Assembly: GCA_022402565.1 (NCBI GenBank)
Contig: JAKRSC010000011.1
Coordinates: forward strand, 1 to 64,000
Reading direction: 5' to 3'
Source: Hydrotalea sp.
GTDB taxonomy: Bacteria; Bacteroidota; Bacteroidia; Chitinophagales; Chitinophagaceae
DNA: 64,000 nt
The notes under the pieces are model-generated. The model saw only the letters and a list, made by a program, of their open reading frames with translations, did not search any database and had not been told where the DNA came from. Below, in pieces: positions 10,565-23,785 of the stretch. Made by a program: the position numbers and the translations under genes. Position 1 is the first letter of the stretch, and every line of letters starts with the position of its first letter.

Positions 10565-11941
10565 ATGATTAGTGTCATCATTCCTACTTTGAATGAACAG
10601 GAACAAATTGCTAATGTTGTTGCTTTTGCAAAATCTCAGCCAAATGTTTCTGAAGTGTTGGTTGTAGATGATCAGTCGCTTGATCAAACAGTTGCTTTGG
10701 CAGAAAAAGCAGGAGCTAAAGTAGTTTCAAGCACTAAGCTAGGCAAAGGTGCTTCTATGAAAGAAGGCATTATGTTTGCCCAAAATGAGTTGGTTGTATT
10801 TTTAGATGGCGACATTCATCCATATCCACACTATACCATTAAATTGTTATCTGATCCATTATTGCAAGATGAAGCAGATTTTGTAAAAGCATCTTTTAGT
10901 AGAAATGCTGGTAGAGTAACAGAGTTGGTGGCAAAGCCTTTGTTAAGTATTTTTTTTCCAGAGCTTACAAGTTTCTCTCAGCCATTAAGTGGAATGATTG
11001 CAGGAAAAAAATCATTACTTCAAACACTAGACTTTAGAGATGATTATGGTGTTGATATTGGAATTCTGATAGATATGCATTTGAATAAGTATCGTGTTAA
11101 AGAAGTTGAAATTGGATATATTGAAAACAACAGCAAGCCTTGGCACGCTCTTGGAAAGATGAGTAAAGAAGTTGCTCAAACTATCATTGCAAAAGCAGCT
11201 TTATCTAATAATCAGCATTATAATTTTGAAGAGTTTGGTGTGTTACAAGTTATTAGGTCACAGATGGAATTGGCTTTAGAAACCCACCAAAAGCAATTTG
11301 AAAAAATGGTGGTTTTTGATATGGATAATACCTTGCTTCGAGGCCGATTTATAGATACATGTGCAGCTGAGTTTGGATTTAAGGCTGAATTAATGGAATT
11401 GAGGTCATCGGAGCAAGATACAGTCGTACTAACCAAAAAAATTGCCACTTTATTAAAAGGCAGAACTATAGAAGAAGTTATAAACATTGCAGAAAATATT
11501 CCAATTGTTCAAGATGCTAAGATGGTTATTGCTGAATTGAAGTTGAGGGGATATTTAGTTGGAATTATATCAGATAGTTATGATTGTGTAACAAGACATA
11601 TAAAAAATAAATTAGGAATGGATTTCTCTTTGTCGAACGAGTTAGAATTTTCAAAAGGTATCTGTACAGGAGAAGTTAAAATTCCATCCTTCTTTTTCAA
11701 TCAATCGAATAGTATTTGCAGGCACCCTTTGTGTAAGACAAACGCAGTATTAAGCTTATGTGAGAAGCACAAAATTCAAATAAAAAATTCTATTGCTATA
11801 GGTGATAGTGCAAATGATTTGTGTATGGTAAAAGAAGCCGGAATGGGAATTGCATTTTGTTCAACCAATGAATTATTAAATCATCATGCAGATGAAATCA
11901 TTAGCGAACCTTCTTTCCAAAATTTATTAGAATGGGTTTAA
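10565..11941 (+). CDS. Glucosyl-3-phosphoglycerate synthase-like GT fused to HAD phosphatase
   Basis: 458 residues, two catalytic domains. Residues 1-~215 form a family 2/81-type glycosyltransferase: IIPTLNEQEQI, VLVVDDQSLDQT, GKGASMKEG, the metal/nucleotide motif DGD (81-83) and then FVKASFSRNAGRVTELVAKP. The last block, with PEL..F.QPLSG and GVDIGILID, closely follows glucosyl-3-phosphoglycerate synthase (GpgS), whose GRVTEL segment binds 3-phosphoglycerate. Residues ~248-458 are a HAD-IB phosphatase (DMDNT at 252-256, GIISDS, GDSANDLCMV). Together they could make and dephosphorylate glucosyl- or mannosyl-3-phosphoglycerate to give the free osmolyte in one protein. The position of the GpgS metal-binding His appears to be Asn here (around 188), so sugar donor and metal use are uncertain. 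Confidence 0.82.
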   Translation: MISVIIPTLNEQEQIANVVAFAKSQPNVSEVLVVDDQSLDQTVALAEKAGAKVVSSTKLGKGASMKEGIMFAQNELVVFLDGDIHPYPHYTIKLLSDPLLQDEADFVKASFSRNAGRVTELVAKPLLSIFFPELTSFSQPLSGMIAGKKSLLQTLDFRDDYGVDIGILIDMHLNKYRVKEVEIGYIENNSKPWHALGKMSKEVAQTIIAKAALSNNQHYNFEEFGVLQVIRSQMELALETHQKQFEKMVVFDMDNTLLRGRFIDTCAAEFGFKAELMELRSSEQDTVVLTKKIATLLKGRTIEEVINIAENIPIVQDAKMVIAELKLRGYLVGIISDSYDCVTRHIKNKLGMDFSLSNELEFSKGICTGEVKIPSFFFNQSNSICRHPLCKTNAVLSLCEKHKIQIKNSIAIGDSANDLCMVKEAGMGIAFCSTNELLNHHADEIISEPSFQNLLEWV

Positions 11942-16254: not shown

Positions 16255-17490
16255 CTATCGGCGTGGTATAAAAATGTTTTTTATGGTTGTATCTGCACAT
16301 CCATTTCCGCGCACGATGAGTCGAACTGAATAAGACTTATCAGTAGACTCTTTTTGATAAGTTGTTTCAATAAAACTATTGTAATCGTCATTTACGATAC
16401 CATTTCCAAAATCCCACCTAAAGCCATCAATGCCACCATAAGGAATCGTAGATTGGCTATTAAATGACCAGCGCATAGTAGTGGCTGTTTCGCTTACTAA
16501 GGTTTCTTGAAAGCGAGCTCTCGGTCTTGGATTGGGACCTTTTGCACTTACCATTTGATTTTTTCGATATATCAAGCGTCCATCTAAATAAATAGACATA
16601 ATAACGTCGTAATCATTCATGAATCTATACCGATGCTTTACGGGATTTCCTGTTTTAGTACCCTCTCCATCAGAAAAGTCCCATACATAAATAGCTCCAG
16701 TTGGAACACTAGTTGCTTGTGCAGTAAATGTAAACTCTTCATCGGTACATGGATTTTGAGCTACAGCACTAAATCCACCAGTAATAGGGTAGTCGGCTAA
16801 AATAGTTACAGGCATTACTGTATCGTGTGTACATCCAGAATTGGCCGTAATTCTGAGCCTTACATTATACACTTTATCAACTGGCGCTCTTGGGAATTCG
16901 TGCCTTACTAGTCCTACTGCTGTACTTCTTGTAGTACCATCGCCCCAATCCCAAAAGTAGTTTACAATGGAACCTCTATTGATTGAAGAAGCACTATTAA
17001 AAGTGACATAATTTACATTGCTAGCGAAGTCAAATTTGTGCGAAAAAATTGCAATTGGTCTTATTTGGTCTCCCCATGCTCTAATAGGAACACCTACCGA
17101 CACCTGCGTGGTTCCATTAATAATAACATCTAATCGAACTACAAATTGAGACGATAAATTATATGTATGTGTCACTAATGCGCCTGTCTTTTCATTTCCA
17201 TCACCCATTCTCCATTTGTAAGTTGCAGAGGAGGGAATAGTGGTACTAGACACTCGGAATGTAAACTGCTCTGTGCTAGGAAAGCAATGATTTGTTTTAA
17301 AGTAACTAATTGTTAGGTTACTAAATCTAACCACTGTTGTATCTCCGCGAACGGTAGTAGTACTGCTTGAATCGGCACTGAAGTCGGGTATTTCAATAGA
17401 TGTCTCAGGCAATTCCGCACCTTTTTGGCAGGACTGCGAAAAGAGTAATCCAGCACCCAAAATCAATAAATATAATTTAACTCGATTCAT
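16255..17490 (-). CDS. PKD-domain surface lipoprotein (copy 2)
   Basis: This 411-residue protein begins with a lipoprotein signal (LLILGAGLLFSQSC, Cys ~21) and carries four PKD-like beta-sandwich repeats, marked by YKWRMGDGNEKTG, YFWDWGDGTTRST, YVWDFSDGEGTKTG and FRWDFGNGIVND. PKD repeats mediate protein or carbohydrate contacts on the cell surface; there is no catalytic domain. It is clearly a paralogue of the protein encoded 13 bases upstream, with the same order of repeats and the same conserved CF, HDT/RDT and RPRA/RPKA landmarks, so the pair arose by tandem duplication and is co-transcribed. Confidence 0.85.
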   Translation of the reverse strand: MNRVKLYLLILGAGLLFSQSCQKGAELPETSIEIPDFSADSSSTTTVRGDTTVVRFSNLTISYFKTNHCFPSTEQFTFRVSSTTIPSSATYKWRMGDGNEKTGALVTHTYNLSSQFVVRLDVIINGTTQVSVGVPIRAWGDQIRPIAIFSHKFDFASNVNYVTFNSASSINRGSIVNYFWDWGDGTTRSTAVGLVRHEFPRAPVDKVYNVRLRITANSGCTHDTVMPVTILADYPITGGFSAVAQNPCTDEEFTFTAQATSVPTGAIYVWDFSDGEGTKTGNPVKHRYRFMNDYDVIMSIYLDGRLIYRKNQMVSAKGPNPRPRARFQETLVSETATTMRWSFNSQSTIPYGGIDGFRWDFGNGIVNDDYNSFIETTYQKESTDKSYSVRLIVRGNGCADTTIKNIFIPRR

Positions 17491-17503
17491 GGCTTAGTAA
17501 CTG

Positions 17504-18727
17504 TTAGCGAGGGGGTATGGTTACGAAAACAGTAGCAGTATCTCTACAGCCAGTGTTGCTCGTTACAATTAGGCTAACTGGATAAGTTCGGGGTGTAGCT
17601 TCTTTCACAAATTCTCTTTCAACATAGGTATTAAAATCATCATTAATAATACCATTTCCTAGATCCCATCTGTAGCCTATAATAAAGCCATGCGGAATAT
17701 TTGATTGGCTATAAAAAGCCCATCTTTCGGTAGTTGCTGTACTTGTAATAATATTTCTTAAAATGAGTGCTTTTGGACGAATGTTTTGACCAAATGCTCT
17801 CACCCATCTATGGGTTCTGTAAATTTCTTTACCCCTCAATGTAATCCACATCTTTACATCATAATCGTTTTGATAAGTAAAGGATTTTCTAATTGGGTTA
17901 CCTGTAACAAATCCTGTAGCATCACCAAAGTCCCAATGATACACCGCACCAGCGGGAACTCCAACTGCAGTAGGAGTGAAGATGAAATATTCATTGGTGC
18001 AACCATCAAACCGAGTTGCTTCAAAGTCGCCAGAAATATTATAAACTGCTTCAACAGAAACGGGAACAATGGCCGTATCTCTACAACCAGAATTAGCAGT
18101 AACAATATGTCGAACTTGATAAACTCTATCTTCTGGAACGGGAGGATAGTTTTTTTGTGCAAAAGGAACAGCAGTGCTTGACGTAGTTCCATCGCCCCAT
18201 TCCCAAAAATAATTGGTTATTGTCCCCGTTGGAACAGAACTTCTACTTGTAAATGACTTGTTTGCTGGAAAGTTTACATCAAAAACTTGCACAGAAAAGG
18301 CTGAGTGCGGACTTACTTGTTGTCCCCATGCTTGGATATTAGTAGCTAATTTTTGTAATAGCTGATTGTTGGAAGTTCTTACTTCTAGAATGACAGTGTA
18401 GTTACCCGGTTCACGATACATAATTCTTACATCAGTGCCCGTTTGTGTAGTTCCATCCCCAAAAGACCAAACATACCTTGCATTTGATGGAACACCTGTT
18501 GCAGTTGCAGAAAAAGCAAATATCTCATTGCTTGGAAAACAGTGAGATGTTCTACTGTGGGTAATTGTTACAGTTCCTTGTTGAATTGTAGTTGTATCTC
18601 TGAAATCGCTTGAGTTGCCAACTATAATTGGGGGTTCAGGATCTGGTTCTGGCGGTTGTACTTCTTTATTATTGCATGAAAAGATGATTCCTGCAAAAAA
18701 AGCTAGTAATAAGAGTTTTCTTTTCAT
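17504..18727 (-). CDS. PKD-domain surface lipoprotein (copy 1)
   Basis: About 407 residues from the ATG at 18725-18727; a Met seven codons earlier gives a worse signal peptide. The lipoprotein signal is MKRKLLLLAFFAGIIFSC, followed by an acidic, Pro-rich stretch (PPEPDPEPP) that fits a surface-exposure linker. Four PKD-like repeats follow, with YVWSFGDGTTQTG, YFWEWGDGTTSST, YHWDFGDATGFVTG and YRWDLGNGIIND. It is probably anchored in the outer membrane. It is first in a two-gene unit with its paralogue. An exact TAATTTTG -7 element lies upstream at 18761-18768. The function is not known. Confidence 0.85.
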   Translation of the reverse strand: MKRKLLLLAFFAGIIFSCNNKEVQPPEPDPEPPIIVGNSSDFRDTTTIQQGTVTITHSRTSHCFPSNEIFAFSATATGVPSNARYVWSFGDGTTQTGTDVRIMYREPGNYTVILEVRTSNNQLLQKLATNIQAWGQQVSPHSAFSVQVFDVNFPANKSFTSRSSVPTGTITNYFWEWGDGTTSSTAVPFAQKNYPPVPEDRVYQVRHIVTANSGCRDTAIVPVSVEAVYNISGDFEATRFDGCTNEYFIFTPTAVGVPAGAVYHWDFGDATGFVTGNPIRKSFTYQNDYDVKMWITLRGKEIYRTHRWVRAFGQNIRPKALILRNIITSTATTERWAFYSQSNIPHGFIIGYRWDLGNGIINDDFNTYVEREFVKEATPRTYPVSLIVTSNTGCRDTATVFVTIPPR

Positions 18728-18760
18728 GATGTGAACGGTTTTATCCAATAAGATATACTA

Positions 18761-19432: not shown

Positions 19433-22400
19433 ATGATACTTTCAAAAGTAATTGGCTTCTTCCTTGAGAGGAAATGGCTGGTTTTGTTCTTTATACTTGC
19501 ATGGATTGGAATGGGTGTTTTTTCTTTTAGAAATTTACCTATAGATGCAGTTCCAGATATTACCAATAATCAAGTCCTAATAATTACTTCTTCGCCAAGT
19601 CTAGGAGCATTAGATATTGAGCGACAAATCACTTTTCCAATTGAACAAGCCACAAGAAATGTTCCTGGAATCATTGAACAGAGATCCTTTTCAAGGTTTG
19701 GACTTTCATTGGTTACGCTTGTATTCAATGAAGAAACAGATGTGTATTGGGCTCGACAGCAAGTTGGAGAAAGATTGGCACTTATTAGAAGTGTGATTCC
19801 TCCCGCTCTGGGAATTCCAGAATTAGGTCCGGTTACAACTGGACTAGGTGAAATTTATCAGTATGTCATTCGTCCTAAACCAGGTTATGAATCAGCGTAC
19901 GATGCAATGGAACTTAGAACTATTCAGGATTGGATTGTTCGAAGGCAGTTGTTAGGTACTCAGGGTGTTGCAGATGTAAGTTCTTTCGGCGGAAAGTTAA
20001 AGCAGTATGAGGTGGCAGTAAATGATCAGCAGTTAAAGGCCTACGGCTGTACCATTCAAGATATTTTTCAAGCCCTTGAAATGAATAACCAAAATACTGG
20101 AGGTGCATATATTGAAAAAGGTCCAAATGTCTTGTACATAAGAAGTGAAGGCTTGGTTAAAAATGCAGAAGACATTGGGGAAATATTGGTTCGAGAATTA
20201 AATGATGGAACGCCGGTTCGAATTAAAAATTTAGCTGAAGTGCAATTAGGAACAGCTATTCGTTATGGTGCAGTTAATTATAATAACCAAGGAGAAGTTG
20301 CTGGAGGTGTAGTCATGATGCTAAAAGGTGAAAACTCTTCTAAGGTTATTAAGTTGGTAAAGGAAAGAATGAAGCAGATAGAAAAAACATTACCTGAAGG
20401 TGTTGTTGTGGAAGCTTTTCTTGATAGAACGAAAATGGTCAATAATGCTATTGAAACAGTTCGAAATAATCTTACTGAAGGAGCTATTATTGTTCTCATT
20501 ATTCTCGTCATTTTTCTTGGCAATTTTCGAGCGGGTTTAATTGTTGCCTCTGTTATTCCTTTATCTATGTTGTTTGCAGTTTACATGATGAATGTGTTTG
20601 GTGTAAGTGGAAACCTAATGAGTTTAGGTGCTCTAGATTTTGGACTAATTGTTGATGGGGCTGTTATCATTGTTGAGGCAGTTTTACATGCTTTATATAT
20701 TCGGCAACGTGAAAAGTCTGATTCCCTAAAATCAATTGATCAAGTTGTAAATCAGTCTGCTTCAAAAATGATGGGTGCAGCTGTATTTGGACAGCTTATT
20801 ATATTAGTTGTTTATCTCCCAATTCTTAGTTTAGAAGGTATTGAGGGCAAAATGTTTAGACCAATGGCGCAAACAGTGATGTTTGCTCTTATTGGAGCAT
20901 TTATATTATCTATTACTTATGTGCCTGTAATGAGTGCTTGGCTTCTTAAGAAAACAAAACGGAGCAAGGAAAATTGGTCAGATCGCTTACTTGTTTATTT
21001 GCAAAATTGGTATAGACCTATTCTTATAAAAGCACTTCATTTTCGAATGCCTATTGTTGTTGCTGTCTTTGTTTTTTTGGGATCTGCTATTTATATTCTA
21101 ATTAATCTAGGAGGAGAGTTTATTCCTAAGCTTGAAGAAGGCGATTTTGCAGTAGATACAAGGGTGTTAACTGGTAGTTCTTTAACAACCACTATTCAAG
21201 CTACACAACAAACTGCAGCAATTCTAATTGAAAAGTTTCCTGAAGTTGAAAAGGTGGTCACTAAAATTGGAAGTGGTGAAATTCCAACCGATCCTATGCC
21301 ATTAGAAGCTTCTGATATGATGGTTATTTTGAAACCTAAAAAGGAGTGGACAAGTGCAAATTCTTTTGATGAACTGGCAGAGAAAATGAGTGAAGCTTTA
21401 GTAGATGTGCCAGGCGTAACAGCCGGATTTCAATTCCCTGTACAAATGCGATTTAATGAATTAATGAGTGGAGGTAGACAAGACATCATTTGTAAAATAT
21501 TTGGTGAGAATATTGATTCACTCGCATCTTTTGCGGCAAAGGTTGGCTCTGTTGCTTCATCGGTAGAGGGAGCAAAGGATATATATGTTGAAACAGTTAC
21601 TGGATTACCTCAAATTGTTATTCAATACAATAGAGCAGCTTTGAGTCAGTTTGGACTTTCAATAGAAACTGTAAACAAAACAATACAGGCAGCTTTTGCT
21701 GGAGCTATTAGTGGACAGGTTTTTGAAGAAGAACGTCGATTTGATTTGGTGGTTCGCTTAAACCAAATACAAAGAACCAACTTGAACGATGTGAAAAATC
21801 TTTTAATATCTACACCAAGAGGCCAACAAATTCCTCTAGAACAAGTTGCTGAAGTAGATATTCAGATTGGTCCTAATCAAATTCAACGAGAAGATGCACA
21901 AAGAAGAATAACAGTAGGATTTAATGTTCGTGGAAGAGATATAGCTTCAGTTGTTAAAGAGCTTCAAGAAAAGATTCAAAAAAAGATGAAGCTGCCGCCT
22001 GGGTATTATGTGACTTATGGTGGACAATTTGAAAACCTAGAAGCGGCAAAGGACAGACTTATGATTGCTGTACCATTGGCTCTTGCTTTTATTTTTATGT
22101 TACTTTTTTTTGCATTTGGATCAGTTGCTCAAGGCCTGCTGGTTTATTCTGCAATTCCTCTTTCTGCAATTGGTGGTGTGTGGGCTTTATGGTTGAGAGA
22201 TATGCCATTTAGTATTTCGGCAGGTGTTGGATTCATTGCTTTGTTTGGTGTGGCAGTTTTAAATGGAATTGTATTGATTTCAGAATTTAACTATTTAAAA
22301 AAATCAGGAATGCAATCTGTTCAAGAAATAATATTGCATGGCTGTATAAGTAGGCTGAGGCCTGTGTTAATGACAGCAATGGTGGCTTCATTCGGGTTCT

Positions 22401-23785
22401 TACCTATGGCAATTAGTAATGGATCTGGGGCAGAAGTACAAAGACCTTTAGCTACAGTTGTAATTGGCGGACTTCTTACTGCAACCATCCTTACTTTATT
22501 TGTTTTGCCCATTTTGTATCAGTGGCTTGAAAAAAAATCAACTCACATCAAGCCTTTAGCTATTTTATTTATTCCACTTCTTTCAATTTTATCAACAACC
22601 GATATTCAAGCACAGAAGAAGATTTCTCTACAGGCTGCTCTAGATTCAGCTATGTTGAATAACACGCTTATTGCTCAGTCTAGGATGCAGACTAAATCGT
22701 TGAGGGCATTGGAAGGAACAGCATGGGAGCTACCTTGGATGAATACTTCTGTAGAGTATGGTAGCTATAATTTGTTCTACAGAGATTCAAGAATAGGTAT
22801 TGAGCAAAGCTTCGATTTCCCTGTTGTATACAAAAGAAATGAACAACTTTTAAAGTCGCTTACCACTTTACAAGAGTATAAAACTAAACTAGATGAAGCT
22901 CAATTAAAACAGGCGGTTAAGCATTTGTTTTATTCTTTAATGCTTATGACCGAGAGAAAAAAATTGCTAATCGTTTCTGATAGCTTGTACAACGATTGGT
23001 TAAAGCGACAACAAACGCGGATGAAAGTAGGTGAAGCTAATTTGGTAGAATTAACTACAGCTGAACTACAACAAATTCAAGTAAAAAATCAAATACAAGA
23101 ACTTGATGCCGATTACGAAACCTTAAAATTTGAATGGCTGCGTTTACTGCAAGTTAAACATGTTTATGACCCCGCCGTTGTGCCTGCTAGAAGATCGTTG
23201 GAATTGCTTCCAGATACTACGTCTGCTAAATTTCATCCATTACTGGCGATGATTCAACAGCAAATTGAAGTTGCAGAAAATGAACTTTCTGCAAATAAAG
23301 TTAGGTCTTCACCAAAAATTAGTATTGGATATTTTAATCAATCTATCATTGGGCCTCAAACAGTGCAGGGGGTTGATAAGTTTTTTGGTCCAACGGTGCG
23401 ATTTTCATCGGCAGCGCTGGGAGTTCAATTTCCTCTTTTTAATAAAGCTAATAAAGCAAGGATTGAAAGTAGCAAGTTGGATATTGAGTCAAACAAATTA
23501 GCCTATGAAACTTCTTACTTAGAGCAGCAAAAACAAATGAATCAAATAGTTGTACAAATTGGAAAGCTTCAGCGAACACTCGGCTATTTTGAAAATGAAG
23601 CAATTCCTAAATCCAACGTCTTGATTACTGCAATGCGTGAACAAGTTGCTAAAGGAAGTGTAAGCTATGTTGAATGGTTGCTCATTATGCAACAAGCAAT
23701 AGGAATTCAGCGCGATTATCTTCAGGCAGTTCAACAGTGGAACGAAATTCTTGCAGCACTCGATATTTTTTATTCAACCAAATAA
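19433..23785 (+). CDS. CusA/CzcA heavy-metal RND pump fused to a TolC-like domain
   Basis: 1450 residues. Residues 1-~1035 are an inner-membrane RND proton/metal antiporter of the heavy-metal (HME) class: ERKWLVLFFIL opens TM1, LPIDAVPDITNNQV follows, and TM4 carries the HME signature DFGLIVDGAVIIVE. The C-terminal ~390 residues (from ~1060, KKISLQAALDSAMLNN onward) are a TolC/CusC-type outer-membrane efflux domain with its coiled-coil hairpins. Between them, residues ~1037-1060 (KPLAILFIPLLSILS..., IQAQ) look like a second signal peptide with a possible cleavage site. The adaptor gene follows after 7 bases. The substrate is probably a divalent or monovalent heavy metal ion; which one cannot be read. 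Confidence 0.93.
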   Translation: MILSKVIGFFLERKWLVLFFILAWIGMGVFSFRNLPIDAVPDITNNQVLIITSSPSLGALDIERQITFPIEQATRNVPGIIEQRSFSRFGLSLVTLVFNEETDVYWARQQVGERLALIRSVIPPALGIPELGPVTTGLGEIYQYVIRPKPGYESAYDAMELRTIQDWIVRRQLLGTQGVADVSSFGGKLKQYEVAVNDQQLKAYGCTIQDIFQALEMNNQNTGGAYIEKGPNVLYIRSEGLVKNAEDIGEILVRELNDGTPVRIKNLAEVQLGTAIRYGAVNYNNQGEVAGGVVMMLKGENSSKVIKLVKERMKQIEKTLPEGVVVEAFLDRTKMVNNAIETVRNNLTEGAIIVLIILVIFLGNFRAGLIVASVIPLSMLFAVYMMNVFGVSGNLMSLGALDFGLIVDGAVIIVEAVLHALYIRQREKSDSLKSIDQVVNQSASKMMGAAVFGQLIILVVYLPILSLEGIEGKMFRPMAQTVMFALIGAFILSITYVPVMSAWLLKKTKRSKENWSDRLLVYLQNWYRPILIKALHFRMPIVVAVFVFLGSAIYILINLGGEFIPKLEEGDFAVDTRVLTGSSLTTTIQATQQTAAILIEKFPEVEKVVTKIGSGEIPTDPMPLEASDMMVILKPKKEWTSANSFDELAEKMSEALVDVPGVTAGFQFPVQMRFNELMSGGRQDIICKIFGENIDSLASFAAKVGSVASSVEGAKDIYVETVTGLPQIVIQYNRAALSQFGLSIETVNKTIQAAFAGAISGQVFEEERRFDLVVRLNQIQRTNLNDVKNLLISTPRGQQIPLEQVAEVDIQIGPNQIQREDAQRRITVGFNVRGRDIASVVKELQEKIQKKMKLPPGYYVTYGGQFENLEAAKDRLMIAVPLALAFIFMLLFFAFGSVAQGLLVYSAIPLSAIGGVWALWLRDMPFSISAGVGFIALFGVAVLNGIVLISEFNYLKKSGMQSVQEIILHGCISRLRPVLMTAMVASFGFLPMAISNGSGAEVQRPLATVVIGGLLTATILTLFVLPILYQWLEKKSTHIKPLAILFIPLLSILSTTDIQAQKKISLQAALDSAMLNNTLIAQSRMQTKSLRALEGTAWELPWMNTSVEYGSYNLFYRDSRIGIEQSFDFPVVYKRNEQLLKSLTTLQEYKTKLDEAQLKQAVKHLFYSLMLMTERKKLLIVSDSLYNDWLKRQQTRMKVGEANLVELTTAELQQIQVKNQIQELDADYETLKFEWLRLLQVKHVYDPAVVPARRSLELLPDTTSAKFHPLLAMIQQQIEVAENELSANKVRSSPKISIGYFNQSIIGPQTVQGVDKFFGPTVRFSSAALGVQFPLFNKANKARIESSKLDIESNKLAYETSYLEQQKQMNQIVVQIGKLQRTLGYFENEAIPKSNVLITAMREQVAKGSVSYVEWLLIMQQAIGIQRDYLQAVQQWNEILAALDIFYSTK

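Follow-up and report, generated by a model that had tools for sequence, protein, structure and literature searches.

A single reading frame in the genome of Hydrotalea sp. raises the question whether one protein can carry out both steps of a glucosylglycerate-type pathway, the transfer of a sugar onto 3-phosphoglycerate and the subsequent removal of the phosphate. The frame lies in a contiguous stretch of 64,000 nt (hereafter the window). For this region the original prediction, made from the letters alone, had proposed a glycosyltransferase similar to glucosyl-3-phosphoglycerate synthase (GpgS), joined to a HAD-IB phosphatase in one chain of 458 residues. This architecture was borne out: Pfam and NCBIfam models split the 458-aa product into a glycosyltransferase and a HAD-IB phosphatase, and every motif that had been named was found in its place, including PEL (residues 132-134), QPLSG (139-143) and GVDIGILID (162-170) beside those listed in Table 1. 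A chance join or an assembly artefact was considered and rejected, because the same two-domain frame occurs in 80 further full-length homologues with 39-74% identity to the window protein. The G+C content of the fusion ORF is 33.8%, compared with 37.1% for the window and 33.0% for the right flank, and base composition is not a strong sign of transfer.

Table 1. Features of the fusion ORF in the window, and the loci of the variant called type B.
Feature	Position or loci	Strand	Basis or remark
Whole fusion ORF	10565..11941	+	Single frame, 458 aa plus stop, ATG to TAA, no internal stops
GpgS-like GT-A glycosyltransferase domain, residues 1-215	10565..11209	+	NF010496 E 3.5e-52; fold Z 29.2 to GpgS
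DGD, residues 81-83, DxD donor/metal motif	10805..10813	+	Aligns with GpgS DSD
GRVTEL, residues 116-121, acceptor-binding segment	10910..10927	+	Conservation; GpgS contacts in PMC2581804
Asn188, place of GpgS metal-site His258	11126..11128	+	Alignments
Helical linker, residues 216-244	11210..11296	+	Predicted model; lowest confidence at 236-242
SerB-type HAD-IB phosphatase domain, residues 245-458	11297..11938	+	TIGR00338 E 1.2e-37; TIGR01488 above cut-off; Z 27.6 to 3M1Y
DMDNT, residues 252-256, HAD motif I, nucleophile D252	11318..11332	+	Translation, alignment
Lys391, HAD motif III	11735..11737	+	55/56 type A
GDSAND, residues 413-418, HAD motif IV	11801..11818	+	D414 53/56, D418 55/56 type A
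Type B fusion loci	L021-L034, L036-L040, L043-L047, L146		HAD nucleophile Asn or Glu

By profile, by comparison with the sequences of solved structures and by fold, the top family for the glycosyltransferase part was GpgS. The NCBIfam GpgS model NF010496 matched residues 2-239 with 177.4 bits, which falls short of its curated cut-off of 262 bits; four fused relatives scored 173-192 bits and a stand-alone GpgS from Bacteroidota (L058) 395 bits. The part is therefore termed GpgS-like and not GpgS, and the originally proposed identity stands as regards profile, fold and acceptor residues but does not extend to the curated family. An AlphaFold2 model built from 40 sequences had a mean pLDDT of 88, weakest at residues 236-242, and a pTM of 0.50, so that the placement of the two domains relative to each other is not fixed by the model. 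With this model, Foldseek returned GpgS entries at ranks 1-30, and VIA-align superposed residues 1-215 on GpgS with Z 29.2 and an rmsd of 1.6 over 214 residues. GpgS, for which such an overlay had been proposed, is thus the top fold match, and its GT-A fold and DxD motif (D81/D83) are both present.

Residue conservation was read from an alignment of 81 full-length members, mostly from Bacteroidota, comprising 56 of type A, the window protein among them, and 25 of type B. Within the DxD motif, D81 is kept in 81/81 and D83 in 80/81 members. In the GRVTEL segment, R117 and V118 are found in all 81 proteins and T119 in 80. In GpgS, the carboxylate of 3-phosphoglycerate is bound by the Val186 main-chain nitrogen together with the Thr187 side chain, and Ile138/Thr139 of MgS hold glycerate in like manner (PMC2581804); the two GpgS contacts are matched by V118 and T119 of the window protein. 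Compared with GpgS, the glycosyltransferase part lacks the N- and C-terminal portions and has a shorter loop ahead of GRVTEL. The deviating loops before GRVTEL and around N188, as well as the missed equivalog cut-off, could speak for another phosphorylated acceptor, such as glycerol-3-phosphate or another phosphorylated hydroxy acid, from which the HAD domain would then remove the phosphate. We regard this as unlikely, since the almost invariant Thr/Val pair of the GpgS glycerate-carboxylate site, matching the Thr of MgS (PMC2581804), favours an acceptor that bears a carboxylate.

The suspected replacement at the metal site was confirmed by the alignments: the position of GpgS His258 is taken by Asn188 in the window protein and by Asn in 78/81 homologues, the exceptions being His in L041 and L112 and Val in L020. 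As the two His-bearing proteins branch together and apart from the rest, the change from His to Asn probably arose once, after their branch had split off. The stand-alone GpgS proteins of Bacteroidota (L058-L078) retain the metal-site His; the gene at L058 is flanked by an M20 peptidase-like gene on one side and a HAD gene on the other, and that at L062 is followed by a glycosyltransferase-like gene. The fusion at L020:6001-7374, which stems from a metagenome-assembled genome (MAG), is changed at key residues of both parts (D83A, T119A, N188V, K391L and D414S).

The altered metal site also bears on the sugar donor. Together with the missed GpgS cut-off and a fold match to the MpgS of Rubrobacter (Z 28.7) close to that of GpgS (29.2), it would suit a protein of the same architecture and acceptor which uses a different donor and makes mannosylglycerate or another hexosylglycerate. 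The sequence of the glycosyltransferase part is closer to GpgS, both in identity within the fold alignments (35-36% versus 30%) and in the comparison with solved-structure sequences (98 bits versus 74), and we place the other-donor reading on the unlikely side while giving it some weight. Because the two fold fits are about equal, donor and product are not readable from the sequence.

For the C-terminal part, the SerB model TIGR00338 matched residues 242-456 with 129.6 bits and missed its cut-off of 144, whereas the HAD-IB subfamily model TIGR01488 passed with 69.4 bits against a cut-off of 45. In VIA-align, the SerB structure 3M1Y was matched with the Z value given in Table 1. All HAD catalytic residues (D252, D254, T256, S336, K391, D414 and D418) are present in the window protein. 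Among the 56 type A members, D252, D254 and T256 are invariant and the remaining motif residues nearly so (Table 1).

With SerB at the top by profile and by fold, the HAD domain might be a phosphoserine or general phosphatase which is merely joined to a GpgS-like enzyme and does not act in sequence with it. No second SerB-like protein of the host genome scored above 23 bits, and a role in the serine pathway was therefore kept open at first. Glu20 and Arg56 of MjPSP, which we take to be the residues that recognize phosphoserine, are replaced by R261 and I293 in the alignment, where the column of Arg56 lies near a gap. Type A members carry R, S, G or K at column 261 and I, V, M, A or L at column 293; Glu at the former and Arg at the latter occur in none of the 81 proteins, so that the domain is expected to act on something other than phosphoserine. 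Furthermore, a survey of 117 genomes of the host family detected one SerB above the cut-off, while 79 genomes were without a SerB-like match at 1e-12 and the remaining matches were nearly all fused HAD domains. Serine synthesis, if present in these 79 genomes, must thus proceed via another phosphatase. By this survey, the fused HAD is not the serine-pathway enzyme of the family, and given also the retention of the fusion across many genera, a mere joining of unrelated activities appears distinctly improbable.

The same domain fusion, for which a search of Bacteroidota genomes had been proposed, was readily found. A pattern scan of GTDB genomes, by which phyla beyond Bacteroidota were sampled, yielded 44 loci, all but two labelled as Bacteroidota lineages; of the two, L041 is labelled Acidobacteria, and L013, labelled Paceibacterota, lies on a 4.1-kb MAG contig that is possibly misplaced. 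A two-domain match was present in 8/395 evenly drawn Bacteroidota genomes, the host counted. In the host family, 72 of 244 genomes had a match at 1e-30, of which 70 span both domains, including one shortened by an internal stop (G582), and two consist of the C-terminal stretch alone. Judged from these matches, the fusion is widespread within Bacteroidota. At 1e-30, neither of the two congeners in the family sample matched the fusion. Of 60 genomes sampled from the genus around G489, the bearer of a Chitinophaga-type fusion protein, 54 had a HAD match within a frame of about 500-560 aa and were counted as fusion carriers from this frame length.

A tree was calculated from 103 glycosyltransferase-domain rows, comprising 55 of type A, 25 of type B and stand-alone GpgS of Bacteroidota and mycobacteria. 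In this unrooted tree, whose bootstrap had not fully settled, a 100/100 branch separates the fused proteins from the stand-alone and mycobacterial GpgS, and the type B rows cluster together (100/100) within type A. The window protein falls into a set of 14 rows (98/99) with Sediminibacterium, Emticicia and MAGs labelled Saprospiraceae and Prolixibacteraceae. This mixture of lineages and the absence from congeners suggest transfer of the fusion between families or patchy loss, bearing in mind that MAG labels can be wrong. The congeners' version of the gene neighbouring the fusion is merely 32% identical, too distant for an empty site to be read cleanly.

In type B, the HAD nucleophile at residue 252 is replaced by Asn in 24 Chitinophaga loci and by Glu in a second copy (L146). 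T256 is often Ala and D414 and D418 are often lost, with the residues of the glycosyltransferase part intact. The same change from Asp to Asn is present in 1L7O, a variant of MjPSP with FNFD at the place of motif I. All 25 type B proteins possess a C-terminal tail of 36-59 aa with a hydrophobic 19-mer (Kyte-Doolittle 1.6-2.1); a membrane-helix tail of this kind is found in no type A member. The median dN/dS of Chitinophaga type B, from 13 non-independent pairs, is 0.045 for the HAD domain versus 0.027 for the glycosyltransferase, which indicates that the HAD is still under purifying selection despite its dead nucleophile. As the glycosyltransferase is kept beside a HAD without nucleophile, dephosphorylation on the same chain would not always be needed. 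The idea of a one-protein pathway thus remains a fair reading for type A, in whose 56 members the catalytic residues are nearly all kept, and fails for the family as a whole because of this mostly-Chitinophaga clade. A separate relative of the fused HAD domain was observed at L144:5992-6738 of G489, where its motifs are intact, and also in G627, G636, G639, G645, G656 and G674, the match in G639 containing two internal stops; these genomes carry a type B fusion at another place.

The membrane helix of type B and the gene of an ABC exporter, located upstream on the same strand in Chitinophaga, could also be taken as marks of a polyprenyl-phosphate or envelope glycosyltransferase akin to AglJ and DPM synthases, with a regulatory HAD domain, and profiles of AglJ and lipid-phosphate glycosyltransferases, which matched less strongly, point the same way. 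The AglJ profile reached 83 bits compared with 177 for GpgS, GRVTEL and QPLSG are retained, and type A has no membrane tail and intact HAD catalytic residues. The AglJ/DPM-like reading was rejected on these grounds, and an envelope role of this kind seems highly improbable. For the family as a whole we offer, tentatively and at less than even confidence, the view that a SerB-type phosphatase was taken up by a GpgS-like enzyme to found a new bifunctional family, which spread in Bacteroidota as a one-gene pathway. Type B would then have become a membrane-anchored glycosyltransferase whose retained pseudophosphatase may regulate it or may serve a different acceptor on the membrane side.

The gene neighbourhood was examined for 58 loci of type A, some on short contigs. 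In 22 of these, belonging to 18 genera, the next gene downstream is a universal stress protein (Usp) gene in the same orientation, at a distance of 4-76 bp except in L140, where the predicted starts overlap. Of the 24 members of the Usp protein cluster, 23 occupy this position, including one after the lone HAD of L145, and Pfam confirmed the Usp assignment in three. As these cases cluster mainly within a single clade of the host family, they represent a conserved linkage and not many independent events. Other fusion loci adjoin a histidine kinase/response regulator, DUF389, a CLC channel or a CitMHS-type transporter; at L041, DUF389 is followed by MscS. The lone HAD of L145 (5965-6669), with Gly at the place of the nucleophile, belongs to a group of Usp, response regulator, histidine kinase, Usp and TPR genes.

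The Usp neighbours in relatives fit a stress role of the fusion protein. The window locus itself has no stress gene or operon partner: upstream lies a divergent pair of membrane-protein-like frames, for which NCBIfam gave no name, and downstream a convergent PAS kinase-like frame. The proposed role as an osmolyte is therefore suggested only by the gene neighbourhood of relatives, with no such context in the window. A brief look at lengths and starts assigned none of the nine alpha-amylase-type matches in the host as a glucosylglycerate-degrading GH13. Elsewhere in the window, inspection by eye revealed a 1450-aa frame (19433-23785) resembling a CusA/CzcA-type RND pump with a TolC-like C-terminal part, and two adjacent related frames of 411 and 414 aa (16255-18748) with the look of PKD-type surface proteins.

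As acceptor and HAD catalytic residues are near-invariant in type A and the phosphoserine-recognizing residues are lost, the window protein is best read as a bifunctional glycosyl-3-phosphoglycerate synthase/phosphatase, an assignment we consider probable, though far from secure, with glucosylglycerate as the probable product. Points against it include the missed GpgS cut-off, the Asn at the metal-site His, the shorter loop and absent GpgS termini, and the near-equal fold fit of MpgS. Further counterpoints are type B with its nucleophile-less HAD, the missing stress operon in the window and, as far as the brief look at the host went, the lack of an assigned product-degrading gene. Acceptor, donor, product and physiological role we infer as follows. 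The GT-A domain would use D81/D83 and a divalent metal to bind its nucleotide sugar, for which UDP-glucose is the likeliest candidate. V118/T119 would hold 3-phosphoglycerate, whose 2-OH would receive the sugar in a retaining transfer. Next, with D252 forming an aspartyl-phosphate, the SerB-type HAD domain would strip off the 3-phosphate. The glucosylglycerate, or other hexosylglycerate, so released would probably serve as a compatible or stress solute, and since one chain would cover both reactions, a separate phosphatase gene would be unnecessary.

In the literature searched, which left most subscription journals outside its scope, no description of a GpgS-like/SerB-like fusion and no report of glycosylglycerate synthesis of such kind in Bacteroidota were found. 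The best-known glucosylglycerate routes employ a separate synthase and phosphatase; the fusion, if the assignment is true, would be a one-gene route, and a SerB-like HAD group without assigned substrate would gain a concrete candidate function. Type B would provide a naturally occurring example of a phosphatase domain still under selection after the loss of its nucleophile.

Among known systems, MgsD of Dehalococcoides mccartyi is a bifunctional mannosylglycerate synthase/phosphatase that uses GDP-mannose (PMC8490865). The fusion resembles it in having two steps on one chain, as far as domain architecture tells, with 3-phosphoglycerate as the proposed acceptor. The MgsD synthase belongs to GT55 and its phosphatase to HAD-IIB, families other than those of the fusion's parts. 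GpgP of M. tuberculosis (Rv2419c) is a histidine phosphatase (PMC3866925). GpgP performs the reaction proposed here for the fusion, whose phosphatase is a SerB-like HAD-IB domain. Other GpgP enzymes are HAD-IIB proteins. SerB itself (HAD-IB, e.g. 1F5S) shares with the fused HAD the fold (Z about 26-27) and the catalytic residues; the fused domain differs in the replaced MjPSP positions E20 and R56 and in missing the SerB cut-off. Only the glycosyltransferase part corresponds in fold to MpgS of Rubrobacter xylanophilus (3F1Y). The GpgS of Mycobacterium (GT81) shares with this part the GT-A fold, DxD, GRVTEL, QPLSG and about 35% identity over 214 residues, and the fusion is set apart from it by the missing termini, one shorter loop, the change of His258 to Asn, a score below the curated cut-off and the fused phosphatase.
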